DNA of 38,958 bases from Candidatus Omnitrophota bacterium (GCA_016180575.1 JACPAY010000011.1:1-38958); one strand, 5' to 3'. Counted from the first letter of the stretch, positions 7,880-32,896 are shown. Program-made: numbers and translations. The notes: generated from the letters alone by a model not told the origin.

Positions 7880-8934
7880 GCGGGCTGCGCCTCGAGGCCT
7901 GCCTGCGCCGCGCCCTTTGCTGCAGTGGAAGGCGCGGCAGGCAGGCCGAATGACTCGGCGTAGAGCCGGTTGACGCGCGCGAGGTCCTCCGCGCTCAGCG
8001 GCGGCAGCTCGGAGGCGGCCGCGAACTCGCGCAGCGCCTGCTCGCTGTAGATGTTCGGCAGGACCGAGGCGACCGCGGGCTCCGCGAGGATGTACTGGAG
8101 CGCCGCCTGAGCCAGCGTCCGGCCCCGATCCTCCCAGAGGAAGCCAAGCCGCGCGGCCTTCTTCAGGCCGTTCTCCTGCCACTGGCGCTTGCGGTCCTCG
8201 GTGGAGACGCGGTGGAAGCGATGGTCGCTCTCGGCGAAGACGGTTTCAGGCTTGACCGTACCGTCGAGCAGCCCCGAGGCGTGGGGGACGCGCACGAGGA
8301 AGCTTGCGCCGGATGCCCGGCCCAGGGGAAAGAGCGACTGGCCGAGCATCTGCTCGAGGAGGTTGTAGATGATGTAGACGACGTCCGCCCGCCGGCGCTC
8401 GATGGCGAAACGGCCCTCCTCGATCTGCCGCTCGGCGATCGCCGGGCCGAGGGCCGGCCCGTAGGCGCGGACCTTGCCATCGCGCTTCAGCGCGTCCAGC
8501 TCCGCGAACAGGTCGTCGCGCTGCATCGCGTCCAGGCGCGGGTTGTGGAGCTGGTAGAGGTCCACGTGGTCGGTCTGCAGGCGCTTCAGGCTCTCCTCGA
8601 GGGCGAAGCGGACGTACTCGGGCCGCCAGTCGTGGGGCAGCTCCTCATGGCCGCGGCGGGTGGTGTGGTGGTAGAAGTCATAGCCGAACTTCGTGCCGAT
8701 GGTGATGGAGCCGCGGCGGTCGCCCAGCGCCTTGGCGAGGATCGTCTCGCCCAGGCCGTTGCCGTAGGTGTCCGCGGTGTCGAAGAAGGTGATCCCCAGG
8801 TCGTGGGCCTGCCGGAGCAGCCGGATGCCGACCGCCTCGTCCGTGATGCCCCACCACGTCGTCGAGACGGTCCAGACTCCGAAGCCGATCTCGGAGACGC
8901 TGACGTCGGTTGTGCCAATGCGTCGCTGTTTCAT
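7876..8934 (-). CDS. Aldo/keto reductase family protein, 352 aa
   Basis: TIM-barrel oxidoreductase using NAD(P)H. Visible motifs are [10 protein letters not shown] with catalytic D52 and Y57, K82 (GTKFGYD), H130 (LYQLHNP) and the C-terminal cofactor region [11 protein letters not shown]. The start ATG at 8932-8934 was chosen because the longer frame runs back into the 96-base repeat element at 8941. The C-terminus after YAESFG is extended by about 23 residues; 16 of these (L331-G346, [16 protein letters not shown]) are encoded by a palindromic repeat that also occurs twice in the ABC ATPase at 31835. The stop overlaps the siroheme decarboxylase start by 4 bases. Substrate is unknown. Its position between a radical SAM gene and siroheme genes says little about function. 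Confidence 0.85.
7896..7947 (-). repeat. In-frame coding palindrome LPAAP...AQAG, copy 1 (in aldo/keto reductase)
   Basis: The left arm (7896-7914) and right arm (7931-7947) are complementary except for a 2-base bulge. On the coding strand the unit starts CTGCCTGCCGCGCC, has 15 variable bases, and ends GGCGCAGGCAGGC. It encodes residues 331-346. Copies in the same phase with the same 16-residue length lie at 32557-32609 and 32686-32736. Confidence 0.85.
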
Positions 8935-8940
8935 GTCGTA

Positions 8941-9038
8941 GGGCCGCGGGTCCTGCCGCGCCGCCACCCCGTCGGCTGTCCTCGGCCTTCGCCTGCGGGC
9001 AGGCGACGGGGTCCCCGGCTCCGCGTCACCCGCGGCCC
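8941..9038. repeat. GC-rich structured repeat (about 96 bp core), copy 1
   Basis: The ends are 11-bp inverted repeats (GGGCCGCGGGT at 8941-8951, ACCCGCGGCCC at 9028-9038). Inside is a second stem CCCCGTCG/CGACGGGG that encloses GCCTGCGGGCAGGC. It fills the whole gap between the radical SAM stop (9041-9043) and the aldo/keto reductase start (8934). Nearly identical cores are at 23146-23241 (inverted), 27827-27922 and 37698-37784. Confidence 0.9.
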
Positions 9039-9040
9039 GA

Positions 9041-9808
9041 TTAGTCGAACACCTCGGCGGGGATGCCGGTCGCGGCGATCAGCCGGTCCGCGATGGCCTG
9101 GAGCGCCTCGCGCGGTGTCTCGGTGATCCCCGGCGCGGCGGTCCCCCGGTCCACGGTGTAAACGTGGACCGAGCGCGGCCGGATGAGCCCGACCGCCTCC
9201 ACCCAGGCCTGGACATGCGCCTCGCCGGTGTTGTCGTAGGCGCCCTGCATGAAGAGGCTCTGCAGGACGATGTCGGGCAGCGCGGCCAGCGCCGCGACCA
9301 TGGCCCGGAAGTCCGCGCGGCCGAGCGGCTGGTTGATGCGCCGCCACGTCGCCTCGTCGGCGGCATCGAACTTCATGTAGCGCGCATCGAGGAGCGCAAG
9401 GGCGCGGCGAACGGGCGGCCGGTCGAGCTGAGTCGCGTCGCTGAGGATGCCGACCGCGGCGCCGGGGAAGCGCGCATCCCGCAGCCGCTTGATGCCGATG
9501 ACCAGCTCCTCCAGGTCCGGGTGGAGCGTCGGCTCGCCGTTGCCGGCCAGGGTGATGCAGTCCACGCGCGTGCCCTCCTCCGCGTGGCGCCGGAAGGCCT
9601 CGGCGATCTCCTCAAGGAGCTGGGGGGCCCGCTTGAGCCGCTCAGGCGAGGGCCCCGGCAGGGTCCAGCCGTACTGGCAGTAGACGCAGTTCGACGAGCA
9701 CACCTTGTGGCTGGACGGCAGCACGTTGATGCCCAGCGACCAGCCAAGGCGCCTCGAGGGGATGGGGCCGTAGACGGTTGTGTCCTGCAAGGGGATGGTA
9801 TCCGGCAT
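9041..9808 (-). CDS. Radical SAM enzyme (COG0731-like), 255 aa
   Basis: The radical SAM cluster motif is [13 protein letters not shown] (C-x3-C-x2-C, near residues 36-43), preceded by the characteristic [38 protein letters not shown] follows as the AdoMet-binding GNGEP strand. The 4Fe-4S cluster and S-adenosylmethionine generate a 5'-deoxyadenosyl radical; the substrate is not predictable. The ATG at 9806-9808 was chosen because it directly precedes the conserved block and the longer frame reads into a palindromic repeat. TACAAT lies at 9821-9826 on the minus strand, so the leader would be very short. The stop codon is 2 bases from the GC-rich repeat at 8941-9038. Confidence 0.85.
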
Positions 9809-9860
9809 GAGCGAACCAGTATTGTAGCACGGCCGGACGGGACGCGCGACAGGCAGCGTA

Positions 9861-9905
9861 AAAGTACCGGGTACTTTTCCCGCTTTGCGAAGTACCCGGT
9901 ACTTT
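9861..9905. repeat. REP-like palindrome, family AAGTACCCGGTACTT, copy 1
   Basis: Perfect 16-bp arms (9861-9876 and 9890-9905) flank a 13-base loop. It abuts the TAG (9906-9908) of the response regulator gene with no gap. Read on the minus strand, the whole 45-base unit, including the loop AAAGCGGG, is about 90% identical to the copy at 18455-18499. Confidence 0.9.
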
Positions 9906-10307
9906 CTAGGCGGGCGGGGCGGCCTTGCGCTCGGCGTCACGCTGCTTGAGCGCCCGGTCGATGCGGGTCAGCAGGTCCTCGTGGTCGAACGGCTTGACGA
10001 CGTAGTCCGCGATCCCCTCCAGATCGAACAGGTCCTTCATGCGGTCGCGGGCGGTCAGGATGATGATGGGGATCTTGCCGCGGCCGTAGCGGCTGTTGAT
10101 CTCGCGCATGCACGAGTAGCCGTCCATGACCGGCATCAGCACGTCGAGGATGACCAGGTCGGGCTGCTCGGCCTCGATCGCCGCCAGGGCCTGCTGGCCG
10201 TCGTTGGCGGTGGACACCTGATACCCGCGGGACTGCAGCCGGATCTTCACCGCCAGGGCCAGCTGCTGCTCGTCGTCCACGACCAGGATCTTCCGTCCCT
10301 CTGCCAT
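9906..10307 (-). CDS. Single-domain response regulator (CheY-like), 133 aa
   Basis: A stand-alone receiver domain: acidic pocket D11-D12 (VVDDEQ), phospho-acceptor D55 (LVILDVLMPVMDGY), T86 (IILTARD) and K109 (VVKPFD). It has a short charged C-terminal tail and no output domain. It starts 13 bases after the stop of the hybrid kinase gene, with GGAGGGG in the gap as ribosome binding site, so the two are almost certainly co-transcribed. It is the likely phosphate acceptor or relay partner of that kinase. Its stop codon abuts a palindromic repeat. Confidence 0.92.
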   Translation of the reverse strand: MAEGRKILVVDDEQQLALAVKIRLQSRGYQVSTANDGQQALAAIEAEQPDLVILDVLMPVMDGYSCMREINSRYGRGKIPIIILTARDRMKDLFDLEGIADYVVKPFDHEDLLTRIDRALKQRDAERKAAPPA

Positions 10308-10320
10308 CCGCGTCCCCTCC

Positions 10321-12264
10321 TTACGGCTTCACGGGCTGCTGCACCAGCACCTCACGGACCTTCGCCAGGAGCGTCTCGATCTCGAACGGCTTCGCGACGT
10401 AGTTGTAGGCGGCCCCGTTGATGCCGAGCTGCCGGTCCTTGCGCTCGCCCTTGGCGGTGACGATGATGACGGGGATCTCCTTGGTCTTGGGGTTCTCTTT
10501 GATGAGGTGATAGACCTCATAGCCGTCCATGACCGGCATCATGAGGTCGAGCAGCACCAGGTCCACCGGCTGCCGCCGCAGCTGCTCCAGCGCGTCGGGG
10601 CCGCTGGCGGCGGTGAAGACATCGTAGTCCTGCAGCTCCAGCGCCTGCCGGAGGAGCTGGCGGATCTTCGCCTCGTCATCGACGACCATGATGCGGCCCT
10701 TGGCCTGGGCGGGCTGCTGCAGCCGCCGCTCGGTGAGCCGGAGCAGCTCAAGCTCCGTCGTCCCCTCATCCGGGTAGGTGGCGGTGACCACGAGGAACGG
10801 CAGGCGGAGCGTCTCCGAGCCGACGGTGAACGGCCGCTGCTCGAGCACCCGCTTGACGCGCGCGGCCATCGCCTGCGCCCCGTCCCGGTCGGCCTCGGCG
10901 AGGACGACCACCATCTCGCCCCGGCGCCACCGCAGGACGAGGTCGCCGCCGTCCCGCCGGCGGACCACCCCCCGGAGCGCTCCCTCCACCTCGTTGAGGA
11001 GGCGGGCGGTCTCGGCCGCGCCGCAGCGCGCCCGGAGCGCCTGGAAGTTCTGCACCGAGAGCACCACGATGGAAAACCGGCCCTGCTGCTGCTTGGCCTT
11101 CTCGATCCCGGCCTGGAACAGCTCGTGGAAGAGCTCCGTCTCATGGTACTTGGGGAGCGTGAAGGTGAACGTGCTGCCCTGGCCCAGGCGGCTCGCCACG
11201 CCGATCCGGCCGCCGTGCAGCTCGACGAGCCGCTTGCTGATCGCCAGGCCCAGGCCCGTCCCCCGCGTGCCCTCGTCGCCGGCGGCATGCTGCTGGACCC
11301 TGGAGAACTTCTCGAAGAGCTTGGGCACATCGTCCTCCGCGATGCCGATGCCGGTGTCCGCGACGCGGAAGGCGAGGTCGCTTTCCCCCTCCGAGACGCT
11401 CACGGTCACGCGGCCCGGGCCGGAGGTGAACTTGATGGCGTTGCTGAGGAGGTTGATGAGCACCTGGGTCACCTTGTCGGCGTCGGCATAGAGCGGCGGC
11501 AGCTCGTCCGGCACCTGCACCTCAAGCTCGATGCCTTTGTTCTTGGCGAGCGGGCGGATGGACTGGACCGTCAGCTCCACGAGCGGCTCGATCTCCGTGA
11601 CCGCCTTCCGGAGCACCGCGTGGCCGGCGTCGATCCGCGCCATGTCGAGCAGGTTGTCGATCATCCGCGTGAGCCGCTCGATGTTGGACCGGATGATCGC
11701 CAGGTACTCCCGCTGCTCGTCGGTCAAGGGGCCTGAGATCTGGTCGAAGAGGATCCCGGTGAACTCCTGGATGGTCGACAGGGGGGTCCGCAGCTCATGG
11801 GAGACGGTGTTGACGAACTCATCCTTCAGGCGCTCCACGCGGTGCCGCTCGATGGCATAGCGGATGGACCGGCCCAGCAGGTGGCGGGAGGTCTGGAGCG
11901 AGGCCTTGACCAGGTGGTCCTGGGCGCCCTGCTGCAGCGCCTGGACGGCGACCGCCTCGTCGTCCGATGCGGTCAGGATGACGACCGGCACCCGCGGGGC
12001 ATGGTGCCGGACCTTGAGGAGCGTCTCCAGCCCCTGGCTGTCAGGCAGGACGAGGTCGAGCAGGATCACGTCCACGCCGCCCTCGGTCAGGCGCGCAAGG
12101 CCCGTCGAGAGCCGATCGGCGTGGAGCAGCTCGATGGGCAGGTCCTGTTGGCTCGCGAGCGCCTCCCGCACGAGCTGCGCGTCCTCGGCCGCATCCTCGA
12201 TGAGGAGGGCCCTGATCGGGTGCGAGGCGTCTGGCCGCCGCGGGTTCGGGTTGAGTATCTCCAT
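10321..12264 (-). CDS. Hybrid sensor kinase REC-HisKA-HATPase-GGDEF-like-REC, 647 aa
   Basis: The domain order is unusual. Residues 17-135 are a receiver (D70, LDLVLPDS). Residues 142-212 are a DHp domain (H156 in VSHELRTP). Residues 255-372 are HATPase_c (N-box LLSNAIKF, G1 DTGIGI, G2 GTGLGLAISKRL). Residues 395-515 look like a degenerate GGDEF-type nucleotidyl cyclase domain, with RWRRGEMVVVL where GGDEF should be, so it is probably not catalytic. Residues 523-643 are a second receiver (D573, K625). There is no membrane segment. The N-terminal receiver is paralogous to that of the kinase at 2415-3551. It probably integrates phosphate from another kinase and passes it to its own C-terminal receiver and/or the adjacent single receiver. 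A promoter and a 6-bp leader hairpin precede the ATG. Confidence 0.9.
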   Translation of the reverse strand: MEILNPNPRRPDASHPIRALLIEDAAEDAQLVREALASQQDLPIELLHADRLSTGLARLTEGGVDVILLDLVLPDSQGLETLLKVRHHAPRVPVVILTASDDEAVAVQALQQGAQDHLVKASLQTSRHLLGRSIRYAIERHRVERLKDEFVNTVSHELRTPLSTIQEFTGILFDQISGPLTDEQREYLAIIRSNIERLTRMIDNLLDMARIDAGHAVLRKAVTEIEPLVELTVQSIRPLAKNKGIELEVQVPDELPPLYADADKVTQVLINLLSNAIKFTSGPGRVTVSVSEGESDLAFRVADTGIGIAEDDVPKLFEKFSRVQQHAAGDEGTRGTGLGLAISKRLVELHGGRIGVASRLGQGSTFTFTLPKYHETELFHELFQAGIEKAKQQQGRFSIVVLSVQNFQALRARCGAAETARLLNEVEGALRGVVRRRDGGDLVLRWRRGEMVVVLAEADRDGAQAMAARVKRVLEQRPFTVGSETLRLPFLVVTATYPDEGTTELELLRLTERRLQQPAQAKGRIMVVDDEAKIRQLLRQALELQDYDVFTAASGPDALEQLRRQPVDLVLLDLMMPVMDGYEVYHLIKENPKTKEIPVIIVTAKGERKDRQLGINGAAYNYVAKPFEIETLLAKVREVLVQQPVKP

Positions 12265-12273
12265 GATGTTTTA

Positions 12274-12292
12274 AGCGGCCTTCACAGCCGCT
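12274..12292 (-). promoter_or_regulatory. Small hairpin in leader of hybrid kinase mRNA
   Basis: AGCGGC (12274-12279) and GCCGCT (12287-12292) form a 6-bp stem with a 7-base loop. It ends 9 bases before the ATG and no Shine-Dalgarno sequence is visible, so it may limit or shape initiation. Confidence 0.35.
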
Positions 12293-12302
12293 ATTACCAG
12301 CA

Positions 12303-12332
12303 AGTATACCTGAGGGGGGAAGCCGAGGACAA
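12303..12332 (-). promoter_or_regulatory. Predicted promoter for hybrid kinase-regulator pair
   Basis: On the minus strand, TTGTCC (12327-12332) and TATACT (12303-12308) have an 18-base spacer. It lies in the only gap upstream of the kinase gene, just downstream of the small basic protein gene. Confidence 0.5.
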
Positions 12333-12344
12333 ATGCGCTGGGGG

Positions 12345-12572
12345 TCAGAGCGAGGCCGCCCACCGCAGGAACCGCAGCAGCGCGGCGCGGTGGCGGAGCG
12401 TGAAGCGGACAAGATGAGCCGGGGTGACCTCTTCCGCGTGGAGCGGGCGGCCATGCGCCCCCAGGAGGCCGTAGGTCGCGACCCGCCAGCGCAGGAGCGG
12501 CGAGCGCCACGGCGCCAAGAGGTCGGGCCAGGTCAGGCGGAGGGCGACGAGGACCATGCGGAGCCACAGCAT
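12345..12572 (-). CDS. Small basic protein, 75 aa, unknown function
   Basis: The ATG at 12570-12572 opens a frame beginning MLWLRMVLVALRLTWPDLL, with a hydrophobic N-terminal helix, then APWRSPLLRWRVATYGLL, then AEEVTPAHLVRFTLRHR, ending in FLRWAASL. It is rich in W, R and L with regular amphipathic spacing, which is not what a shadow frame normally gives. The start lies 8 bases downstream of the thiol peroxidase stop on the same strand, so the two are probably one transcript. I recall similar short proteins as conserved hypotheticals but cannot assign a function. Confidence 0.65.
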   Translation of the reverse strand: MLWLRMVLVALRLTWPDLLAPWRSPLLRWRVATYGLLGAHGRPLHAEEVTPAHLVRFTLRHRAALLRFLRWAASL

Positions 12573-12580
12573 GCGGCGTC

Positions 12581-13081
12581 TTAGCGCGCGATGGAGCGAA
12601 CCGCCGCCAACGCAGCGTCGTAGTTCGGGTGCGAGGCGATCTCCGGGACGTACTCCACGTACCGGACCGTGCCGCCGGCGTCCACGACGAAGACGGCGCG
12701 GCTCAGGAGCCGCAGCTCCTTGACGAGGGTGCCGTACGCCCGGCCGAACGACGTCTCCCGGTGGTCGGAGAGGGTCATGATGCGCTCGACGTTGGAGGCC
12801 CCGCACCACCGCTTCTGGGCGAACGGCAGGTCCACGCTGACGTTCAGGATCTGCACGTTCGGGAGCTTGGCCGCTTCCTCGTTGAACCGCTTGGCCTGCT
12901 GGTCGCAGATGGGCGTGTCCAGCGAGGGGGTCACGCTGATGAGGAGCGTCTTCCCCTTGAAGCGGGAGAGGGTGACCGCGGAGAGGTCCTGCGCGAGCGC
13001 CTCGAACTCCGGCGCCTTTGAGCCGGCCTTGGTGGCACGACGATCCCCATCATTATAGACTAGAGGATGTCTGATGGCCAT
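12581..13081 (-). CDS. tpx: Thiol peroxidase (Tpx, atypical 2-Cys peroxiredoxin), N-terminus unresolved
   Basis: The core is a Tpx: KAGSKAPEFEAL, SLDTPICDQQAKRFNEEA with peroxidatic C59 in TPIC, RWCGASNVER with resolving C93, and the C-terminal TVRYVEYVPEIASHPNYDAAL. It reduces hydroperoxides with thioredoxin. The N-terminal beta-hairpin normally found before the VGDKAPDF block (about 20 residues) is missing. The only in-frame ATG (13079-13081) overlaps the divergent YgfZ start. The better-placed ATGATG at 13048-13053 is out of frame with the core. A small indel near 13030-13045, or an odd start, is therefore likely. TATAAT lies at 13052-13057 on the minus strand. Residue numbers assume the 13081 start. 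Confidence 0.75.
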   Translation of the reverse strand: MAIRHPLVYNDGDRRATKAGSKAPEFEALAQDLSAVTLSRFKGKTLLISVTPSLDTPICDQQAKRFNEEAAKLPNVQILNVSVDLPFAQKRWCGASNVERIMTLSDHRETSFGRAYGTLVKELRLLSRAVFVVDAGGTVRYVEYVPEIASHPNYDAALAAVRSIAR

Positions 13082-14195: not shown

Positions 14196-14685
14196 GCGTC
14201 GCCAGCGTGACCATCCGGTCGAGGAAGACCTTCCCCCCGAGGTGGTCGCACTCGTGCTGGATGATCCTGGCGAAAAACCCCTGCGCGCGGAACCGCACCT
14301 TGTCCCCCTGCCGGTTGTACGCCTCCACCTCGAGCGACTCCGCGCGGGGGACCTGCCCCCGAAGCTCATCGACGCTGAGGCAGCCCTCCCAGTCGAGGCG
14401 CTGCTTCTTCGAGGCGGCGAGGATCTTGGGGTTGATGAGGATGGTGAGGGGGACGGGACCTTCGCCCGGATAGCGGCGGTTGTCGGTGACCTCGATCACC
14501 GCCACCTGAGCCGAGACGTGCACCTGGGGCGCGGCCAGGCCCACCCCGTCGTACTCCCGCATCGTCTCGACCATGTCGTCGAGGAACCGCTGGAACTCGG
14601 GCGAGACGATGCGCTCCTTCGGGATGGGCTCGGCCTGGGCGCGGATGACCGGATGCCCGAGCCGCGCTACTTTGAGAATCGCCAT
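14152..14685 (-). CDS. def: Peptide deformylase, 177 aa
   Basis: All three deformylase motifs are intact: GVGLAAPQ (47-54), EGCLSV with metal ligand C102, and HECDH with H144, E145 and H148. The enzyme removes the formyl group from nascent N-terminal methionine in the cytosol. The N-terminus MAILKVARLGHPVIR is the normal family start. The gene lies directly downstream of the GNAT gene on the same strand; the 25-base gap between them is mostly a palindromic repeat (14690-14710). The last 44 bases overlap the end of ygfZ on the other strand. Confidence 0.95.
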   Translation of the reverse strand: MAILKVARLGHPVIRAQAEPIPKERIVSPEFQRFLDDMVETMREYDGVGLAAPQVHVSAQVAVIEVTDNRRYPGEGPVPLTILINPKILAASKKQRLDWEGCLSVDELRGQVPRAESLEVEAYNRQGDKVRFRAQGFFARIIQHECDHLGGKVFLDRMVTLATLTHLREFVRYWQEG

Positions 14686-14689
14686 GGAA

Positions 14690-14710
14690 AAATGGGACCG
14701 GTTCCTATTT
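14690..14710. repeat. REP-like palindrome, family AATGGGACCGGTCCCATT, degenerate copy 2
   Basis: AAATGGGACCGGTTCCTATTT pairs over 10 positions with one bulged T and one G-T pair. It abuts the GNAT stop codon (TAG, 14711-14713) and ends 5 bases before the deformylase ATG. Confidence 0.6.
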
Positions 14711-15028: not shown

Positions 15029-15034
15029 GATGGA

Positions 15035-15046
15035 CCATTATAATGG
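15035..15046. promoter_or_regulatory. Shared palindromic -10 region for divergent GNAT and elp3 genes
   Basis: CCATTATAATGG is a perfect 12-base palindrome that contains consensus TATAAT on both strands (15039-15044 plus, 15037-15042 minus). On the minus strand a TTGGAA lies 18 bases upstream (15061-15066), inside the loop side of the neighbouring REP-like palindrome. Confidence 0.5.
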
Positions 15047-15100
15047 GGACAGCCACTAATTTCCAATGGCGGAGGCGCTGGGAAATTAGTGGCTGTCCCC
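15045..15100. repeat. REP-like palindrome, family GGGGACAGCCACTAATTT, copy 2
   Basis: Perfect 20-bp arms (15045-15064 and 15081-15100) flank a 16-base loop that is unrelated to the loop of copy 1 (2354-2416). The right arm ends 4 bases before the elp3 ATG (15105), so it occupies the position where a ribosome binding site would lie. Confidence 0.9.
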
Positions 15101-22395: not shown

Positions 22396-23106
22396 TTAGA
22401 TGGATGGCGCCGGGACGCGGGTTTGGCGGAGGCCCTGCAAGGTCTCGCGCAGCTGCGCGCGCACGTCGCGCAGCTGCTCGTCGGTGAGCGGGTGGTCGAA
22501 GAGCCGCTCCAGCACCTGGAGCGCCTGGCGCAGGTCGGCGATCCCGTCGGTGAGCGAGCCGTCGGCCAGGCGCTGGCGGCTGAGCGAAACGAACAGCCGG
22601 CTCACGTGGAGCGCCGTGGCGGTGTCCGTCGGCACGTTGTGCAGCCCGTTGAGGTACGCCTCGAGCGCCTCGGCGGGCTTGCCCGCCCCCTCGAACCCCC
22701 TGCCCAGCCGGCTCCAGTAGTCCAATCCCACTCGCGGTTCGGCGAACCGAAGGTCATGGTCCGGCACCACCTCGAGGCCCCAGGTCTGCAGCACCGGGTA
22801 GCTGTAGAGATGGAGGGTGAGCTCGCGCGGCGTGCCGTTGCGGAAGACGAGCACCGGGACGGCGACGGCGCGCCCGCGCAAGGCGCCTGAGACCACCGCG
22901 AACTCGTCGATGGAGCGGATGTCCGCATCCCGCACGCGCACAAGGATATCGTCGGGACGCAGGTCGGCCAGCTGCGCCTGGGAGGCCTCCTCGACGCTGA
23001 TGACCCGCACGCCGAGCGGGCTGTCGGCGACGACGACCCCGCGGAACACCGAGGGCTGCGCCGCCATCGCGGCCCCCTGGCCCGCCAACCACACGACGAG
23101 CGCCAA
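22396..23106 (-). CDS. PDZ-domain exported protein with helical C-terminal half, about 236 aa
   Basis: After a short hydrophobic N-terminus (ALVVWLAGQGAAMAA, probable signal peptide) comes a PDZ domain: GVRVISVEEASQAQLADLRPDDILVRVRDADIRSIDEF, with the G-L-x-x-G-D-I-I-like LRPDDILV core. Residues 130-220 are helical and TPR-like (GFEGAGKPAEALEAYLNGL, GIADLRQALQVLERLF). No protease triad is visible, so it is more likely a scaffold. The start is uncertain: the frame has no ATG before the mature part; TTG at 23104-23106 gives a signal peptide, while ATG at 23067 removes it. It is the last gene of the MoxR/BatA operon. The upstream gap is entirely a repeat element. Confidence 0.72.
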   Translation of the reverse strand: MALVVWLAGQGAAMAAQPSVFRGVVVADSPLGVRVISVEEASQAQLADLRPDDILVRVRDADIRSIDEFAVVSGALRGRAVAVPVLVFRNGTPRELTLHLYSYPVLQTWGLEVVPDHDLRFAEPRVGLDYWSRLGRGFEGAGKPAEALEAYLNGLHNVPTDTATALHVSRLFVSLSRQRLADGSLTDGIADLRQALQVLERLFDHPLTDEQLRDVRAQLRETLQGLRQTRVPAPSI

Positions 23107-23279
23107 AAAATAGTACCGGTTCCTGCTCTGTCGAATACCTCGCTCGGCCGCGGGTGACGCGGAGCCGGGGACCCCGTCGCCTGCCCGCAGGCGAAGGCCG
23201 AGGACAGCCGACGGGGTGGCGGCGCGGCAGGACCCGCGGCCACACGGAAGTATTCGACAGAGCAGCCGGTGCCTTTTTG
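23105..23279. repeat. Composite repeat element with GC-rich core copy 2 (inverted) and nested flanks
   Basis: The 96-bp core (23146-23241, opposite orientation to the others) is bracketed by a perfect 14-bp inverted repeat, GCTCTGTCGAATAC (23125-23138) and GTATTCGACAGAGC (23250-23263). Further out is an imperfect AAAAA...ACCGG / CCGG...CCTTTTT pair. The unit fills the gap between the vWA gene stop (23283) and the PDZ gene start (23106). Confidence 0.88.
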
Positions 23280-25865: not shown

Positions 25866-27772
25866 GGACGGGCTGCGAGGGTCGTGGGACCGCTTCTCTT
25901 TTCCTGTCGGGTGAGGGTAGGAAAAGGGAAGTGGTCCCGCTTTTCTGTGTAGCGCCACCACTCGATGAGCAAGACGACGAGCATCGCGAGCATCAGGGCG
26001 CGGGAGAGCGGCTGGGCCGTCCGGCCGGCGCTCGAGATAGTCCCGGGACCGCTTTCCTTTTCCCACTCTTGTCCGATAGGAAAAGGGAAACGGTCCCGAT
26101 TTGTACGCCAGGTGGACGCGCGGTGCAGGAGGTTGGATTCCACCGGGTCGAAGAAATTCGCCGCCACGCTGACCTCCGTGGCTCCCTGGAGAAAGCGATA
26201 GAGGCCGGCTGCCGTCGCCGCGTCATAGCTCACCGTCCCGCTGGAGGAGTCCACCTGGTCCGACGAGCCGTCCGGGCGGCGCACCGTGACGCGGCCCGGC
26301 AGAAAGCCGCCGGCCGACAGCGGCCCGCCCATCGTGTCGGCCGATGTCCCCATCAGCCAGCGCAGGCTGTTGAAGAACGCCAGGAGCACCGGAGTGGAGC
26401 CGGGGTCATGGGAGGGATCGAGCCGCATCACGACGGTCCGCAACCCCTCCCGCTCATCGGCCACGACCACGGGCACCTTCCGGCCGTTCACCAACGCGGC
26501 GACGACCACCACCCCGGAGCCGGTCCACGGCGACAGGTTGAGCGCGGCGGACGCCGTCTCGACCGGGGCCAGGTACGAGCCGATGGGATGGCCCGACGCC
26601 ACCACCCAGCGGCTGAGGAGGGGGCGCGAGGGGCTGGGAGGCTCGAAGACCATCGACGCGGCAGCGCCCTGCGCTGCGTCCCAGCGGTCTGTGATGACGA
26701 GCGGCTCCCCGCCCGGCGCGGCCGGCGGGCCGTTTCCGTCCTCCATCGTCCAGGTGAGCGTCTCGCACGCCCCCAGCCACGACGAGAGGGTCTCCTTGAA
26801 CGCCGCGGTGTGCGGGCGCAGGGCGATGGGCGCGGTGGCGCCGCGGAAGAGGTTGATCCAGGCGCGGTTGTCCGCCTCCAGGCCGTCCCGTTTCGCGGCG
26901 AGCGCGATCTCCACCCAGCCGGCCGCGTCATCGGGAAGCGCCAGCGCAAGCGACTGCCGCTCGCCGGGGGCGAAGGCCGCGGCGGTCTCGGCGAGGCGGC
27001 GGCCGCCCTGCGAGGCGGTGAGGGTCGCCCCCGCTTCCTCGTCGGAGAAGTTCTGCACCGTCGCCACGACGCTCGCCTCGGCCGCGCGGCACAGCGGGCC
27101 CTGCGCGTCGAGCCCCACCAGCGCCGCGTTGGGAGCCGGCGCGCCCACCGTGGCCCACTGGAGGCGATCATTTCCCTGCTCGGCCGGCCGCGCTTCATCG
27201 GTCGCCACCAGCGTCCGGTCGGGCTCGGCGGCGAGGAGCATCCGCCCAATGTGGGCGGCTGTGGCCAGGTTGCCGCCGAGATGAGCCACCCGCGCGCGCT
27301 CGATCGCCTGCCGGAGTGTTGCCGCATCGCTCGTCGGCTGCGGCGTCAGCGACGCCACCGGGGCGGTCGTCACGACGAGCCACTGATCCGCCGGCGATTT
27401 GCGCGCGAGGCGCGAGAGGAGCGCGCGCTGCGCCCGCTCAAACGCGGTGGCGCCTCCGCCAAAGAGCCCCGGGGCGCGGGCCCCCATGCTGGCGGAGGTA
27501 TCGAGGAGGACGAGGACGGTCCTCGCGCGGGGGCGCATCAGCACCGGGCGGGCGAGCGCGGCGGTCAGGCCGAGGAGCGCTGCAAGCTGCAGCCAGAAGA
27601 GAAGGGTCACCACCAGGCGGCTGCGCCGCTTCGGCGCGCGCCGCAGCAGGTGCTCAAACGGGATGAGGCTGGGGATGAGCGACTGGCGCCGGGTGGACGC
27701 GAGGCGCCAGAGCCACAGGAGGACGGGGATGCTGGCCAGCCAGATGAGCGCCCCCGGCGCGAGGAAGGTCAT
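25862..27772 (-). CDS. BatA-like N-terminal double-transmembrane vWA protein, 636 aa
   Basis: MTFLAPGALIWLASIPVLLW and a second helix (VVTLLFWLQLAALLGLTAA) form the BatA double-TM domain. A vWA domain follows with MIDAS-like VLLDTSASMG. The middle is beta-rich, and a C-terminal helix (ALMLAMLVVLLIEWW) returns to the membrane. Two palindromic repeats lie in the coding sequence either side of that last helix and encode R559-P576 (RDRFPFPIGQEWEKESGP) and R612-P629 (RDHFPFPTLTRQEKRSGP). Between BatA-type genes and MoxR/DUF58 the order here is standard. The ATG at 27770-27772 is 7 bases from a repeat element that fills the gap to the DUF58 gene. The stop overlaps the next start by 4 bases. Confidence 0.85.
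   Translation of the reverse strand: MTFLAPGALIWLASIPVLLWLWRLASTRRQSLIPSLIPFEHLLRRAPKRRSRLVVTLLFWLQLAALLGLTAALARPVLMRPRARTVLVLLDTSASMGARAPGLFGGGATAFERAQRALLSRLARKSPADQWLVVTTAPVASLTPQPTSDAATLRQAIERARVAHLGGNLATAAHIGRMLLAAEPDRTLVATDEARPAEQGNDRLQWATVGAPAPNAALVGLDAQGPLCRAAEASVVATVQNFSDEEAGATLTASQGGRRLAETAAAFAPGERQSLALALPDDAAGWVEIALAAKRDGLEADNRAWINLFRGATAPIALRPHTAAFKETLSSWLGACETLTWTMEDGNGPPAAPGGEPLVITDRWDAAQGAAASMVFEPPSPSRPLLSRWVVASGHPIGSYLAPVETASAALNLSPWTGSGVVVVAALVNGRKVPVVVADEREGLRTVVMRLDPSHDPGSTPVLLAFFNSLRWLMGTSADTMGGPLSAGGFLPGRVTVRRPDGSSDQVDSSSGTVSYDAATAAGLYRFLQGATEVSVAANFFDPVESNLLHRASTWRTNRDRFPFPIGQEWEKESGPGTISSAGRTAQPLSRALMLAMLVVLLIEWWRYTEKRDHFPFPTLTRQEKRSGPTTLAARP
25886..25938 (-). repeat. 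In-frame coding palindrome RDxFPFP...SGP, copy 2 (in batA-like gene)
   Basis: The 19-bp arms (25886-25904 and 25920-25938, two mismatches) flank a 15-base loop. The arm core is GGGACCGCTT-N-CTTTTCC. It is in the same phase as the copy at 26044-26098 and has the same loop length. Confidence 0.88.
26044..26098 (-). repeat. In-frame coding palindrome RDxFPFP...SGP, copy 1 (in batA-like gene)
   Basis: The 20-bp arms (26044-26063 and 26079-26098, two mismatches) flank a 15-base loop. It encodes R559-P576. The loop sequences of the two copies differ, while the arms are conserved. Confidence 0.88.
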
Positions 27773-27778
27773 GTCGTC

Positions 27779-27959
27779 AAAAAGTGCCGCGAAGTGCCTG
27801 GCACCGCTCTGTCGAATACCTCGTTGGGCCGCGGGTCCTGCCGCGCCGCCACCCCGTCGGCTGTCCTCGGCCTTCGCCTGCGGGCAGGCGACGGGGGCCC
27901 CGGCTCCGCGTCACCCGCGGCCACACGGGGGTGTTCGATGGAGCAGTCTGGCACTTTTT
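27779..27959. repeat. Composite repeat element with GC-rich core copy 3 and nested flanks
   Basis: The outermost pair is AAAAAGTGCC (27779-27788) and GGCACTTTTT (27950-27959). Next is a GAAGTGCCTGGCAC tract (27791-27804), then GCTCTGTCGAATAC (27806-27819) against GTGTTCGATGGAGC (27931-27944, 3 differences), then the 96-bp core (27827-27922). It spans almost exactly from the DUF58 stop codon (27958-27960) to the BatA-like start (27772). Confidence 0.9.
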
Positions 27960-28893
27960 ACTCAAGGAAGCCATGGATGGGCAGCGTTCTCGTAATGAAG
28001 GTGGCGAGCGGCTCGTCCAGCCGGTGCTGGGCGAACGGGATCCCGTGCCGCTTGCAGAACCGGACCAGCAGCTCGTTATGATCCGCGACCGCCCGCTCAA
28101 GCTCCGCCGGGCTGTAGGCGAGCTGGTGGGTTTGGCCCGTCTCGACGTCGACCAGCAGCCCTCCGCGCAGCAGCCGGGCGGGGTGGAGCTCCTGCGGGCT
28201 CAGGACCTGGATCACCTTGATCTCGAGGTTGCGCATCATCAGCACGTGGAGCGCCCGGAAAAAATCGGCCGGGTGCGCCATCCCGTCGGTGAGCAGGATG
28301 GCCTGGCCGCCGCGGATGCGCAGCCCGATCGCGGCCCGGCGCATCCAGTCGGCCATGGCGGTCTGCCCTTCGATCCGGGCGGCGTCGGCGAGCTCCGCCA
28401 TCCGGAAGATGTCGCGGCGCTGGTGGCACCACGGCGTGGCCGCGAGGCGCCCCGGCCGCAGCCAGCTCAGGCGCGCGTGATGGCGCCCGGCCACGGCGAT
28501 GTAGCCGAGGCTGACCGCCAGCTGCTTGGCGCGCGCGAACTTCTCGGGGGTGGGGAGCCCCATCGAGGCGGTCGCGTCGACGATCAGCTCGACGGAGAGG
28601 GTGATCTCCTCGCGGTAGGTCTTCACGAACAGCCGCTCGAGGCGCGCGTAGAGGTTCCAGTCGATGGCGCGGATGTCGTCGCCCGCGCAGTACGCGGCGT
28701 AGTCGGCGAACTCCACCGAGGAGCCGCGCCGGTTGATGGGGAACCGGCCGCCCAGCGACCGGCCGGCCCGGACCCATCGCACGGAGAGCTGGAGTGTTTC
28801 CAGGCGATTGATCAGCTGAGGGGTCAACCACGTCGTCGGCATCGCAAAGGCGTGCGCCGCGCGCGAGGGCGCGGCGCCGTCAGCGGCGCTCAC
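27958..28893 (-). CDS. DUF58 (vWA-fold, YeaD-like) protein, 311 aa
   Basis: The DUF58 signature is complete: GRFPINRRGSSVEFADYAAY, then GDDIRAIDWNLYARLERLFVK, then a vWA-like strand SVELIVDATASMG. These soluble proteins act with MoxR AAA ATPases and BatA-type membrane proteins, perhaps as adaptors in chaperone or metal-insertion systems. The GTG at 28891-28893 overlaps the MoxR stop (GTGA) as at other junctions in this operon; an ATG at 28842 is the alternative and would remove a 17-residue Ala-rich lead. The TAA stop overlaps the composite repeat. Confidence 0.88.
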   Translation of the reverse strand: MSAADGAAPSRAAHAFAMPTTWLTPQLINRLETLQLSVRWVRAGRSLGGRFPINRRGSSVEFADYAAYCAGDDIRAIDWNLYARLERLFVKTYREEITLSVELIVDATASMGLPTPEKFARAKQLAVSLGYIAVAGRHHARLSWLRPGRLAATPWCHQRRDIFRMAELADAARIEGQTAMADWMRRAAIGLRIRGGQAILLTDGMAHPADFFRALHVLMMRNLEIKVIQVLSPQELHPARLLRGGLLVDVETGQTHQLAYSPAELERAVADHNELLVRFCKRHGIPFAQHRLDEPLATFITRTLPIHGFLE

Positions 28894-29894
28894 GCGGGGG
28901 CGTCGCGCCGCAGGGGAGCGGTGAGCTCCGTGAGGATGTCGGGGGCGGTCCGCTTGTCCGCCTCCGCTTCGAAGGAGAGGATGACCCGGTGGCTGAGCGC
29001 GGGCAGCAGGACGCGGTCGATGTCCCCCACGCTGACGTTCACCCGCCCGTCGAGCAGCGCCGTCACCTTCGCGCCGAGGAGGATCGCCTGGGCGCCGCGG
29101 GGCGAGGCGCCGTAGCGCAGGAACCGCCGGGCGGGGTTCTCCGCGCCGTCCTCGCTGGGGCGGGTCGCGGTGACCAGCTTCACGATGTACGCCTCGATGG
29201 GGCTGGCCACCAGCACCTCGCGCACGAGGCGGCGCGCGGCGAGAATCCACGCCTGCGCCTTGGCGGCGGGCAGCACCGGTTCCACCACCGCCGAGTGGGC
29301 GGAGGTCGTCTGCCGGATGATCGTCGACAGCTCCTCCGAGGAGGGATAGCCGACGAAGATCTTGAAGAGGAACCGGTCGAGCTGGGCCTCGGGCAGCGGG
29401 AAGGTGCCCTCCATCTCGATGGGATTCTGCGTCGCGATGACGAAGAACGGCTCCTCCAGATGGAAGGTGCTGCCCGAGATGGTCACCTGCTGCTCGCCCA
29501 TCGCCTCCAGCAGGGCCGACTGGGTCTTCGGGGTGGCCCGGTTGATCTCATCGGCCAGCAGGATGTGCGTGAAGACCGGCCCCTTGGAGAACTCAAACAC
29601 CTTGCGGCCGTCCCGGTCGACGACAAGTTGGGTGCCGAGGATGTCGGCGGGCATCAGGTCGGGGGTGCATTGGATCCGGTTGAACGAGAGGCCCAGCGTC
29701 TGCGCGAACGACTTGGCCAGGAGCGTCTTGCCCAGGCCCGGCACGCCCTCCAGCAGGACGTGCCCGCCGGCGAAGAACGCGACCAGCAGCCGCTCGATCA
29801 CCTCGTCCTGCCCGACAATCGCCCGGTGCAGCTCATCGCGGAGCGCACCCACCGTCTTGCTGAACTCATCCGGACGCACCACAAGCTCCGTCAT
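28890..29894 (-). CDS. MoxR-type AAA+ ATPase, 334 aa
   Basis: Walker A is GVPGLGKT (50-57) and Walker B is ILLADE (111-116); MGEQQVTISG, sensor-1 VIATQNPIEMEGTFPLPEAQLDRFLFK and the sensor-2 region GASPRGAQAILLGAK are the usual MoxR blocks. Members of this family remodel or mature partner proteins together with vWA proteins. Here the partners are evidently the DUF58, BatA-like and vWA proteins encoded directly downstream. It starts with an ATGA overlap on the preceding gene and ends with a GTGA overlap on DUF58. Confidence 0.95.
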   Translation of the reverse strand: MTELVVRPDEFSKTVGALRDELHRAIVGQDEVIERLLVAFFAGGHVLLEGVPGLGKTLLAKSFAQTLGLSFNRIQCTPDLMPADILGTQLVVDRDGRKVFEFSKGPVFTHILLADEINRATPKTQSALLEAMGEQQVTISGSTFHLEEPFFVIATQNPIEMEGTFPLPEAQLDRFLFKIFVGYPSSEELSTIIRQTTSAHSAVVEPVLPAAKAQAWILAARRLVREVLVASPIEAYIVKLVTATRPSEDGAENPARRFLRYGASPRGAQAILLGAKVTALLDGRVNVSVGDIDRVLLPALSHRVILSFEAEADKRTAPDILTELTAPLRRDAPA

Positions 29895-31348
29895 TGGACC
29901 CTCGTCTTCTGCAACCGGTCAAACACCTCTCGATATTCGGGCGGCACGACCTGGCGTCCCGTGGCGCGCTCATCCAGCGGTACCTCGGAGAGCTGGGCAT
30001 CCTCCGCCTGCGCGGCGGGGGCGTCGGGAGCCACGACCTCGGAGGCCTCGCCGACCCCGCCTCCCCGGCGGGTGGAGCGGGTCTCGGCCGCGTCGGTCCC
30101 CAGCGACATCGGCAGCGCTGAGCCGTCTTTGCCCTCCGGCCCCAGCGGCTCTGGCGCCTCGTAGAGATCGGGATCTGTGCTGGTCCCCGCGTCCGGGGCG
30201 GTATCGCCCTGCGCCTCGGCGAGCTGGGACTGCAGCTGCTTCAGCTCGCCCGACACCTCTTGCAGCAGCTCCTGGATCTCCGCCCTCAACGCTGCCTGAT
30301 CGCCGGAGGACTGCCCGCCGCCGCTGCCGCTCTGCGCCTCGGCAGACGCTGAGGCCGCCTGGTCCTGCTGGGCCCCGCCTGATTGTGCCTGTTGGGCCTG
30401 CCGCCCCTCTCCGGCGGCGCGCTCGCGCGAGCCATCGGCTCCCTGCTTCCCCTGTCCTTCCTGGCGCGACGAGCCCTTCTGCGACGCATCCGCTCTCGTC
30501 CCCTGGCCGCTCTCCTCGCCTGGGCGGTCGCCGGGCTGACCTGAGTCGCGTCGCTGGTCCGCGCGCGCTCCCTGCGGACGCGCGTCTTGCGACCCCTGAT
30601 TTGCGGACGAGCCCGACTGCCCCTGCCCGGAGGGGTCCTGCTGTCCCTCTTCCCCTCCGCTCGGCGACTTCGACGAATCCGACGCCCCGGACGATTGCTG
30701 ATCCTGCTGGGATGATTGGTCCCGGTTCCCCGACGAGCCCCCGGGCTGAGGCTGCGAGGCGCCTGACTCTTGGCGCTCACCCTGCTGAGGCGGAGGCGGT
30801 GGCTCCGGTTGGGGCGGCGGCTCGGGCTGTGGCGACGGCGGGGTCGGCCGAGGCAGCTGGGCGAGCTGCTGCAGAACGGAGCCGCCCCGCATCGGCCACA
30901 AGAGCAGCACGAGCAGCAGCGCCGCCAGCGCCACGGCCGTGCGATCCCATGGCCTCGGGAACCGCACGCCCTGCGCGATGACCCGGTGCGAGACGTCCTC
31001 GACGAGGAGCGGGTACAGGAGGGGCGGCTCCGCCGCGCGGGCGAACTCCTCGGCGGTGATCAGCCGCTGCTTCAGGCCGAGGATCCGGTCCAGATACGCG
31101 GCGCCGCCTTGCCGGGAGATCCAGCGGCGGCGCAGCCAGCCGCCCAGGGTCGCGGCTGCCGCGAGGCCCAAGAGGCTTGGCGCGCCGACCGCCCAGACCG
31201 GACTCACCTGCAGCCGGTGGAGCCGCCAGGCGAGGACGGCGGCCACGCCGGCGCCCAACGCGGCCAGCACCACGGCTTTCAGCAGCAGCCGCGCCCGGTA
31301 GCGCGCGGTGAATCGCCGGAGGACCTCGGAAAATGTCGGAGTGGTCAT
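29891..31348 (-). CDS. Membrane protein with long Gln/Ser/Gly-rich region (DUF4175-like), 485 aa
   Basis: Three hydrophobic segments (about 20-42, 50-70, 137-153) are followed from residue 160 by Pro-rich then Gln/Ser/Gly/Asp-rich low-complexity sequence up to about 365. A short coiled coil (ALRAEIQELLQEVSGELKQLQSQLAEAQ) and an acidic C-terminal tail follow. This shape is that of the DUF4175-type proteins at the head of MoxR/BatA operons. The low-complexity part is probably a disordered extracytoplasmic or cytoplasmic tether. It is first in the operon; its ATG (31346-31348) lies 5 bases from a palindromic repeat. Confidence 0.75.
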   Translation of the reverse strand: MTTPTFSEVLRRFTARYRARLLLKAVVLAALGAGVAAVLAWRLHRLQVSPVWAVGAPSLLGLAAAATLGGWLRRRWISRQGGAAYLDRILGLKQRLITAEEFARAAEPPLLYPLLVEDVSHRVIAQGVRFPRPWDRTAVALAALLLVLLLWPMRGGSVLQQLAQLPRPTPPSPQPEPPPQPEPPPPPQQGERQESGASQPQPGGSSGNRDQSSQQDQQSSGASDSSKSPSGGEEGQQDPSGQGQSGSSANQGSQDARPQGARADQRRDSGQPGDRPGEESGQGTRADASQKGSSRQEGQGKQGADGSRERAAGEGRQAQQAQSGGAQQDQAASASAEAQSGSGGGQSSGDQAALRAEIQELLQEVSGELKQLQSQLAEAQGDTAPDAGTSTDPDLYEAPEPLGPEGKDGSALPMSLGTDAAETRSTRRGGGVGEASEVVAPDAPAAQAEDAQLSEVPLDERATGRQVVPPEYREVFDRLQKTRVQ

Positions 31349-31353
31349 CGGTA

Positions 31354-31386
31354 CCGGTATCAGATACCGCCGGTATCTGATACCGG
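31354..31386. repeat. REP-like palindrome, family GGTATCTGATACC, encoding a protein C-terminus
   Basis: Perfect 16-bp arms (31354-31369 and 31371-31386) flank a 1-base loop. Each arm is itself a palindrome (GGTATC-A/T-GATACC). On the minus strand it encodes PVSDTGGI followed by TGA, the end of the lipoprotein gene, and stops 5 bases before the next gene start. Confidence 0.92.
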
Positions 31387-31758
31387 AAGAGTAGCGAAAT
31401 GGCCGGCGATCAGCCGACCGTCGTGGACGGTTTCATCGACCCACACCCGCACGGGCTCGCCCTGCGGGGGCATGCTCGCCTCAGCCGGCGGCATCGGCCC
31501 GGCGCCGGTCGCAAGCTCCTCGCTGAGCACCTTGCGCTCGCGCTTCTCGGTCACCTTATCCACCTCGCCCTGCACGAGCAGGCCGGCGAGGAGGCCGACG
31601 AGGGCGCCGAGCGGCGCGCCCACCCCCGGCGCGATCGCGGAGCCGGCGATCGTCCCCACCGTCTGCCCCATCTGGGACGGCGAGATGCCGGCGCAGCCGG
31701 CACAGAGGGTGCCGCTGGCCATCACACCGACGAGGAGATACGTGGACCGGCGAGGCAT
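31360..31758 (-). CDS. Glycine-zipper lipoprotein, 132 aa
   Basis: The signal peptide MPRRSTYLLVGVMASGTLCAGC ends in a lipobox-like CAGC. A glycine-zipper helix pair (VGTIAGSAIAPGVGAPLGAL, VGLLAGLLV) is typical of SmtA/YmgG/Rick_17kDa-like outer-membrane-associated proteins. A charged stretch (EVDKVTEKRERKV) and a proline-rich segment follow. The last eight residues (P125-I132, PVSDTGGI) and the TGA stop come from a palindromic repeat, so the original end has been replaced or extended. The ATG at 31756-31758 was chosen for the signal peptide and for its promoter at 31772-31800. Confidence 0.78.
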   Translation of the reverse strand: MPRRSTYLLVGVMASGTLCAGCAGISPSQMGQTVGTIAGSAIAPGVGAPLGALVGLLAGLLVQGEVDKVTEKRERKVLSEELATGAGPMPPAEASMPPQGEPVRVWVDETVHDGRLIAGHFATLPVSDTGGI

Positions 31759-31771
31759 GGAGATATCTGTT

Positions 31772-31800
31772 ATAGTACCTGAAACGCCTCCCCTTGACAA
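31772..31800 (-). promoter_or_regulatory. Divergent promoter region, lipoprotein side
   Basis: On the minus strand, TTGTCA (31795-31800) and TACTAT (31772-31777) have a 17-base spacer. The plus strand has a perfect TTGACA at 31794-31799 toward the ABC operon, so the two -35 elements overlap; the plus-strand -10 is poor (AATACT with a 20-base spacer). Confidence 0.5.
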
Positions 31801-31834
31801 GGCGCGGCGCTGTTGAAAAAATACTACAGAACAA

Positions 31835-32896
31835 ATGGACCCGATCCCATTTTCCCAGCCTGCCATTGACGTCGCCAGCCTCACGAAGCGCTACGACGCC
31901 GTCACCGCCCTTGCCGATGTCTCGTTTCAGGTCCAGGCAGGCGAGATCGTGGGATTTCTGGGCCCGAACGGGGCGGGCAAGACCACGACGCTGCGGATCC
32001 TGACCGGGATGCTCGCGCCCACCGCCGGCACGGTCCGGATCGACGGCCTGGACGTCACCGAGCGCCCGCTCGAGGTGCGCCGGCGCATCGGCTACCTGCC
32101 GGAGCACGTCGCGCTCTACCCGGAGCTGCGCGTGCAGGAGTACCTGTACTACCGCGCTTCCATCAAGGGGGTCCCGGGCCGGGCGCGGCGCGAGCACGCG
32201 CGGGACGCCATGGAGCGGTGCGCCGTCACGGACGTGGCGCGCCAGCTCATCGGGCGGCTCTCCAAAGGGTACCGGCAGCGGGTGGCGCTGGCCGACTGCC
32301 TCCTCGCGCGGCCGCCGATCCTCATCCTCGATGAGCCGACCGTCGGCCTCGACCCCCACCAGATCCGGCAGACCCGCGAGCTCATCAAGGCGCTGGGGCG
32401 CAGCGCGACCATCCTGCTCTCCACCCACATCCTGCCGGAGGTGGAGATGCTCTGCCACCGGGTCGCCATCATCGACAAGGGCCGCATCGTGGCCGTTGAC
32501 ACGCCGGCCCAGCTCGGGCAGCGGCTCCGGGGGACGCAGATCGTCCGGGTGGAGCTGCGCCTGCCTGCCGCGCCAACCGCGAACGCGATGGGCGTGGCGC
32601 AGGCAGGCGGCGATGACACCGTGATCGAATCCGCCCTGCGGGAGCTCCCGGGGGTGGCGCGCGTCACGGCGCAGCGCCGCGAGGACCTGCCTGCGCCGAG
32701 CCAGGCGGATGGCGGCCAGGCGCGGCAGGCAGGCGGCGCGGCGGCCTTCGAGGTGGAGGCCGACCAGCAGCACGACATCCGGGAGGCGATCTTTCGCCTC
32801 GCGGTCGAGCGCCGGTGGGCGCTGCGGGAGCTCTCGCAGCAGCGCGCGTCGCTCGAAGAGGTGTTCATCCACCTCACGACGCGGGAGGACACATGA
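31835..32896 (+). CDS. ABC transporter ATP-binding protein (NatA/GldA-like), 353 aa
   Basis: The ATPase has Walker A GPNGAGKTT, signature LSKGYRQR, Walker B ILILDEPTVGLDP and H-loop LLSTHI. The C-terminal regulatory extension (residues 225-353) is longer than usual because two copies of a palindromic coding repeat lie in it: L243-G258 (LPAAPTANAMGVAQAG) and L285-G300 (LPAPSQADGGQARQAG). It powers the permease encoded next, with an ATGA overlap. The operon (ATPase, ABC-2 permease, GldG, DUF4340) is like gliding or cell-surface export systems. The ATG lies in a degenerate AATGGGACCGG-type palindrome and has no clear ribosome binding site. Confidence 0.92.
   Translation: MDPIPFSQPAIDVASLTKRYDAVTALADVSFQVQAGEIVGFLGPNGAGKTTTLRILTGMLAPTAGTVRIDGLDVTERPLEVRRRIGYLPEHVALYPELRVQEYLYYRASIKGVPGRARREHARDAMERCAVTDVARQLIGRLSKGYRQRVALADCLLARPPILILDEPTVGLDPHQIRQTRELIKALGRSATILLSTHILPEVEMLCHRVAIIDKGRIVAVDTPAQLGQRLRGTQIVRVELRLPAAPTANAMGVAQAGGDDTVIESALRELPGVARVTAQRREDLPAPSQADGGQARQAGGAAAFEVEADQQHDIREAIFRLAVERRWALRELSQQRASLEEVFIHLTTREDT
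32557..32609 (+). repeat. In-frame coding palindrome LPAAP...AQAG, copy 2 (in ABC ATPase)
   Basis: The left arm GCGCCTGCCTGCCGCGCC (32557-32574) and right arm GGCGTGGCGCAGGCAGGC flank a 15-base variable centre. Length and phase are identical to the copy in the aldo/keto reductase. Confidence 0.88.
32686..32736 (+). repeat. In-frame coding palindrome LPA...QAG, copy 3 (in ABC ATPase)
   Basis: CCTGCCTGCGCCG (32686-32698) pairs with CGGCAGGCAGG (from 32723). The centre is more diverged than in copies 1 and 2, but the encoded length (16 residues) and phase are the same. Confidence 0.78.

Follow-up and report, generated by a model that had tools for sequence, protein, structure and literature searches.

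Among the closest described precedents for the element reported here are the Rickettsia palindromic elements (RPEs; Ogata 2000, 2002), which are described as about 150 bp long and grouped in ten families (PMC10969869) and as ending in CGTC (PMC3733652). In a review, Rickettsia stands as the extreme case of palindromes inserted in frame, and that other prokaryotes behave alike is only conjectured (PMC10969869). Here we analyse 38,958 nt of a Candidatus Omnitrophota genome (GCA_016180575.1, JACPAY010000011.1:1-38958; this whole stretch is called the window), in which a short palindromic unit, CCTG...CAGG, lies three times within two protein-coding genes, those of an aldo/keto reductase and an ABC transporter ATPase. 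Our reading, to which we assign a probability of roughly 0.84, is that the unit is a non-autonomous mobile DNA hairpin that acts much as RPEs do and whose surviving copies have been filtered for a tolerated peptide. A first-pass annotation of the window had suggested such a mobile palindrome, and the suggestion is supported here; we infer mobility from presence and absence among related sequences and from spread across loci and species.

Like RPEs, the Omnitrophota unit is palindromic, dispersed and found in frame in unrelated functional proteins with one frame preferred, and to this extent the likeness to RPEs drawn by the first-pass annotation stands. It does not extend to length or tag, the two features by which the sequences were compared: the unit is 30-57 nt long and has no CGTC tag. 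The unit is further set apart by an R^Y target (purine, then pyrimidine) entered without duplication, by nearly invariant arms around a variable centre, and by different host phyla. With REPs and REPINs (PMC3116915, PMC3733652) it shares a hairpin form, invariant ends, a variable spacer, compensatory changes, a non-autonomous character and recorded intragenic cases, but it has neither the GTAG/CGTC tag nor a tie to a Y1 transposase, is much shorter than a REPIN, lies mostly within genes in its own genome and shows a strong phase preference. Its architecture is that of a miniature REPIN, yet tag and RAYT linkage fail. Since the length and CGTC end of RPEs and the tag and RAYT of REPINs are all missing, we place the unit, as an intragenic, coding palindromic element, outside both families. 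Bacterial miniature inverted-repeat transposable elements (PMC10969869) are likewise short, dispersed and non-autonomous, with inverted ends; unlike them, the unit makes no target-site duplication, has no parent insertion sequence with the same ends that we could find, and reaches only 30-57 nt. The coding palindromes of Nematomorpha mitochondria (PMC6649704) are also inverted repeats in functional protein genes, gained and lost between species, but they belong to an animal organelle and consist of long perfect repeats, with arms of up to 142 bp, whereas here a single short sequence family recurs in bacteria. We found no paper that names this sequence or describes in-frame palindromes in Omnitrophota.

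Within the window, the 48-bp unit occupies 7898-7945, 32560-32607 and 32686-32733. The copies, the parts of the first copy and the two host genes are as follows.

7876..8967, minus strand: host gene 1, an aldo/keto reductase of 363 aa; Pfam Aldo_ket_red covers residues 26-336, and the insert lies beyond the domain, near the C-terminus.
7898..7945, minus strand: element copy 1, 48 nt, reading CCTGCCTGCCGCGCC-centre-GGCGCGGCGCAGGCAGG on the minus strand and adding 16 residues to the reductase tail.
7931..7945, minus strand: 5' arm of copy 1 (CCTGCCTGCCGCGCC); in an alignment of 19 copies the first 14 arm columns are invariant.
7915..7930, minus strand: variable centre of copy 1, which, when its edges are included, matches the centre of the copy in the ribosomal protein L25 gene (G000:C13:75192) at 15 of 18 bases.
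7898..7914, minus strand: 3' arm of copy 1 (GGCGCGGCGCAGGCAGG) with its 2-nt bulge, delimited by alignment and fold.
31835..32896, plus strand: host gene 2, an ABC transporter ATPase of 353 aa; ABC_tran covers residues 26-169, and both inserts are C-terminal of the domain.
32560..32607, plus strand: element copy 2, 48 nt, in sense orientation in the ATPase gene, contributing LPAAPTANAMGVAQAG.
32686..32733, minus strand: element copy 3, 48 nt, inverted in the same ATPase gene, contributing LPAPSQADGGQARQAG to the plus-strand protein.

The encoded peptides, 16 residues each, span 7897-7944 (minus strand), 32561-32608 (plus strand, LPAAPTANAMGVAQAG) and 32687-32734 (plus strand, LPAPSQADGGQARQAG); in all three copies the palindrome boundaries are offset by one base from the codon register, and the common codon phase is xxC CTG CCT GC.... 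The first-pass annotation had described the same 16-residue peptide encoded three times. Three 48-nt units do lie in the reductase tail and at the two ATPase sites, in one phase, but copy 3 is inverted, so that its peptide reads LPAP...ARQAG and not LPAAP...AAQAG, and only the peptide ends are shared. Folded as DNA and as RNA, the window copies give z-scores of -2.4 to -4.9 relative to shuffled sequences; no Rfam match to a known structured RNA was found in the window.

Many more copies exist in the source genome (G000; 1.31 Mb in 28 contigs, 84.6% complete, 69% G+C). The outer-arm pattern CCTGCCTGC-N{20,40}-GCAGGCAGG finds 19 exact copies there and the reversed control pattern finds none, which bears out the view of the first-pass annotation that random convergence is unlikely. 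Sixteen of the 19 are 48 nt long, the others 45, 51 and 54, and a covariance model built from them adds shorter forms of 30, 33 and 36 nt. After inspection the total stands at 35 copies, most within genes, or about 32 beyond the window's three; a 48-base unit describes every window copy, but element length is not fixed and runs from 30 to 57 nt. Some copies lie in other phases or outside genes. Roughly 80 copies were read at loci of the family, and the covariance model detects the element in over half of the genomes of the family and in the one further family that was searched within the order; elsewhere in the class it gives only weak, short matches, and many same-family genomes searched with it gave none. 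Hosts were named by Pfam (AKR, ABC ATPase, OGG, HisRS, Der, L25, ScpA and two chorismate-binding enzymes), by match to a solved structure (PGK, DnaE, IspA, HsdR) or by reading of the sequence (NadE, PriA, RNase Z, NuoC, UvrC, L3, HsdM); they include PGK, DnaE, HisRS, the ribosomal proteins L3 and L25 and repair enzymes.

Comparison with relatives shows where the element has been added. Fourteen host proteins of the source genome, among them OGG, L25, HisRS, ScpA, NadE and PriA, were aligned with orthologues from the same genus (G001) and from the family. In most of the 14, the relatives join exactly at the place where the source protein carries an insert of 12-18 residues (OGG RWKAH|DGW, L25 LED|GKAW, NadE ILAR|NRV, and likewise ScpA and both ABC sites), and at the DNA level the joins are exact, with target bases neither lost nor duplicated. 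The reductase orthologues of G001 (L365) and G024 (L371) are without the copy 1 insert, and five orthologues of the ATPase are without both copy 2 and copy 3. That relatives even of the same genus do not have the peptide at the same sites agrees with the mobile palindrome first suggested. Three sites, those in NuoC, in RNase Z and in the AAA_33-domain protein of L025, are occupied in relatives by other inserts (L364 and L357 in G001, L366 in G022), which are longer, at 20-35 residues, and in some cases visibly palindromic with different arms; several families of coding palindromes may share the same loops. PriA of G000 and PriA of G023 have the element in the same position but differ in its centre; PriA of G001 is without it. 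Because these other inserts and the PriA element occupy the same sites, such sites are, on the alignments, shared insertion-tolerant loops. One G001 copy (C17) was considered as the orthologue of a copy in the source genome and rejected, as the flank alignment ends at about 45 nt.

The flanks of 75 family copies define the insertion target as an R^Y dinucleotide, mostly G^C. The base at -1 is a purine in 69 of the 75 (G 58, A 11), the base at +1 is a pyrimidine in 59 (C 48, T 11), and the two are complementary, G-T pairs included, in 52; the R^Y preference is also present in copies that are not clearly coding. At sites of the form A[CCTG...CAGG]T, an A precedes and a T succeeds the element, and the terminal C and G are therefore the element's own and no target base has been duplicated. 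Together with the exact DNA joins, these A^T sites exclude target-site duplication. No GTAG or CGTC tag was found in the flanks of the 75 copies.

How the copies are read is as constrained as where they insert. By a codon model trained on the source genome and scored on both flanks, 32 of 38 clearly coding copies share one phase (phase 1, LPA...QAG), 26 of them in sense orientation and six inverted. The bias is strong against an expectation of one third (p = 1e-10) and persists against the 0.38 expected from the codon positions of R|C steps (p = 6e-9), so target choice is not its source. In phase 1 the peptide, LPA(A/P)...QAG, is rich in Ala, Pro, Gly and Gln and has no Cys; the other two phases, which are rare, give Cys- and Arg-rich peptides (PACRA...GAGR, ACLPR...RRQA). 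The natural explanation of the bias would be loss of harmful insertions, and the count is what selection for a tolerated peptide, as suggested in the first-pass annotation, predicts.

In gapped form the element is CCTGYCTGCC-N-GGSRCAGGCAGG. Its outer stem of 8 bp (CCTGYCTG/CAGGCAGG) has invariant arms, the 3' arm carries a 2-nt bulge (CG, CA, GA or GG), the inner stem has 5-7 bp, and the loop ranges from almost zero to more than 20 nt. The inner stem varies on both sides (CCGCG/CGCGG, CCGTG/CACGG, CCCCG/CGGGG, CCGTC/GACGG, CCGAA/TTCGG), and across 147 distinct elements 80% of its positions form Watson-Crick pairs, compared with 68% (at most 71%) once partners are shuffled. Elements measure 30, 33, 36, 45, 48, 51, 54 or 57 nt, most commonly 48 or 33, and the 48-nt form would correspond to the 33-nt form with about 15 extra loop bases. 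At L385 (G026 C28, element at 1668), L400 (G017 C27, element at 22527), L163 and L148 the element is longer and its loop holds a second, nested palindrome, as if one hairpin had entered the loop of another.

Among 48-nt copies the centres are mostly unrelated, with a mean pairwise identity of 0.36. Like centres also recur at unrelated loci: UvrC and PriA of G023 (16/18), AKR and L25 of the source genome (15/18), its chorismate-binding gene and the G001 copy C17 (14/18), and its NadE and HisRS (13/18). After column shuffling the best pair averages 0.68 and reaches 0.89, so the single pairs fall within the shuffled range. None of them is conclusive, but the set as a whole, with a T shared by the arms of the NadE and HisRS copies, is persuasive. 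In these pairs, 14 of 72 centre positions differ, against 2 of 120 arm positions (p = 3e-5, for copies found by their arms and pairs chosen afterwards). Because like centres recur at unrelated loci, the centre was probably copied with the element; it would travel with it, be dispensable for movement, and then probably change faster than the arms.

The element was inserted as a single block inside an R^Y dinucleotide, with neither duplication nor loss of target bases. We propose that it would be moved by an enzyme, borne by the host or by a phage, that works in trans on the arms, the substrate perhaps being a folded single strand. The arms would stay identical because they are needed for movement, the centre would be free to change, and insertions of other phase, length or place would mostly be purged. 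A single-strand mechanism would suit the lack of target duplication, the palindromic nature of the R^Y target and the bulge in the hairpin. Several points weigh against a mobile hairpin. No mobilising enzyme was found, the Y1_Tnp genes of the family and of 18 element-bearing genomes from other phyla not being flanked by the hairpin, with one adjacent case excepted, and neither excision nor insertion was seen to happen. Comparisons of the arms carry a bias, since it was by their arms that the copies were located. Finally, near-identical arms around almost unrelated centres are unusual for ordinary copy-and-paste movement and are only partly explained.

The hairpin form invites another explanation: that the unit belongs to the REP/REPIN family mobilised by RAYT, a Y1 tyrosine transposase, and that its coding copies are the by-catch of an essentially extragenic repeat. 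REPINs are built alike: their inverted ends are invariant, their spacer is of fixed length but less conserved, and changes are compensatory (PMC3116915). REPs within genes are already known (PMC3733652), and the lack of target duplication is compatible with a single-strand route. The source genome also carries one Y1_Tnp gene, and one WOR-3 contig (L137/L417) has the hairpin about 60 nt past a Y1 stop codon. Yet there is no GTAG or CGTC tag, and the copies of the source genome are mostly genic. A search for Y1_Tnp (PF01797), with the flanks scanned, covered 28 genomes from the class and, from other phyla, 18 that bear the element; Y1_Tnp occurs in 21 of the 28, including once in the source genome, and in 16 of the 18, but virtually no Y1 locus examined, whether of the family or of another phylum, has the hairpin beside it, and a RAYT/Y1 transposase was accordingly rejected as a linked mobiliser. 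In G001, whose assembly is about 73% complete, the element is present and no Y1 gene was detected. A protein search for a second Y1 subgroup, RLKGYDY, found it in 11 of 27 genomes, with a hairpin adjacent only at the WOR-3 locus, and no relatives of this subgroup in the viral contigs searched. On balance we consider membership of the REP/RAYT family unlikely, though far from negligible. Nor is there a sign of a larger element with these arms at its ends in the source genome, where, at 84.6% completeness, unpaired left arms are at chance level.

Might selection instead maintain the hairpin as a signal in DNA or RNA (a protein-binding site, a translation pause or a determinant of mRNA stability), placed in genes for that purpose? 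Arm identity does extend to synonymous positions, the inner stem pairs co-vary and the RNA fold is stable, but the sites are not conserved across species of the family, most being empty in relatives, the functions of the hosts are unrelated and many same-family genomes searched have no match; we regard such a role as improbable. It is very improbable that the segment goes untranslated, either because the ribosome skips it, as with the byps of Magnusiomyces mitochondria, or through excision from RNA or protein. The inserts do sit in essential enzymes, and translational bypass is known to take the form of palindromic hops, according to a work cited in PMC6649704; yet skipping or splicing needs no fixed phase, whereas 32 of 38 copies share one, and copies in other phases are Cys/Arg-rich and rare, as expected if they are translated. 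A further alternative is convergence of low-complexity Ala/Pro/Gly loops, with no mobile element involved. The genome has 69% G+C and such linkers are common, but the arms are identical as DNA and not just as peptide and both orientations are used. This identity and the inverted copies refute convergence, whose probability is practically nil; phases 0 and 2 also occur, the empty sites are clean and the reversed control gave 0.

The hairpin is not confined to Omnitrophota. Named species genomes, for which the matches listed are a lower bound, and viral contigs were scanned, and among the matches listed the same hairpin appears in Verrucomicrobiota, Kiritimatiellae, Lentisphaerae, Planctomycetota, Patescibacteria, Methylomirabilota and Nitrospirae, and also in several Deltaproteobacteria, Bacteroidota, an ANME-1 archaeon and the isolate Thiorhodospira sibirica. 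Length is divisible by three in 146 of the 181 matches listed, mostly 30, 33, 36 or 39 nt; a minority, such as symmetric 40-nt ones, are probably other palindromes, and about half of the matches listed fall outside called genes. Outside the family, phase 1 accounts for 29 of 60 copies in open reading frames among the matches listed (p = 0.01), a weaker bias with rough reading-frame calls. In-frame copies stand in DnaE, at a gap of the solved Thermus chain 2hpi, and, among the matches listed from other phyla, in IspA; within the Omnitrophota family, an in-frame copy in PGK, adding 12 residues at locus L076, likewise stands where the solved chain 1vpe has a gap. Type I restriction genes of unrelated bacteria (loci L155 and L175, L116 and L191) carry the hairpin in the same loop: in HsdR of a Nitrospira and a Syntrophaceae genome the site is the same and the proteins are 70% identical, and in HsdM of two organisms the site is the same and the phases differ. 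We suggest tentatively, at somewhat less than even odds, that one family of mobile coding hairpins spans many phyla of bacteria and extends to at least one archaeal genome, as a cross-phylum counterpart of the Rickettsia elements; that it enters R^Y without duplication by an undescribed, probably single-strand-based route; that its arms are preserved and its centre renewed or freely changed; and that it repeatedly writes new loops of 10-18 residues into working enzymes.

Other palindromes were noticed in the window and in relatives. A different, imperfect 47-bp palindrome, ACCCCGTCGGCTGTCC...GCAGGCGACGGGGT, occurs without mismatch at window positions 8966-9012, 23171-23217 (inverted) and 37719-37765, its flanks largely conserved for about 25 bp on each side. 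Long palindromes with a common GGGGACAGCCACTAATTTC, different centres and stems of 20-23 bp, at 2354-2416 and 15045-15100, are apparently intergenic and resemble REPs or terminal inverted repeats, and a REP-like palindrome, AAGTACCGGGTACTT...AAGTACCCGGTACTT, is found at 9861-9905 and in G001 (L412:12927-12967). At 3527-4639 on the minus strand, a MoeB/ThiF-like adenylyltransferase has an unusual Arg/Ser-rich C-terminal tail, possibly owing to a frameshift, and a AGTGCCAGGCACTTC palindrome at 3646-3697 within the C-terminal part of its gene. In relatives, the Y1 transposase loci L269 and L285 have a different palindrome nearby, GGTGCCAGGCACC or GTGCCTGG..CCAGGCAC, and an ordinary REP/RAYT system seems to coexist in the Omnitrophota family.

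The Omnitrophota hairpin provides a second, clear case of in-frame palindromic insertion, in a phylum unrelated to Rickettsia; close relatives show the exact empty sites, the insertion target is defined and the phase filter is strong. The pattern CCTGYCTGCC...GGCRCAGGCAGG can serve as a marker by which such loops are recognised in gene predictions from environmental genomes. The system opens two questions to testing: by what means short palindromes move when no transposase is linked to them, and with what frequency in-frame insertion of mobile DNA gives rise to new segments of protein.

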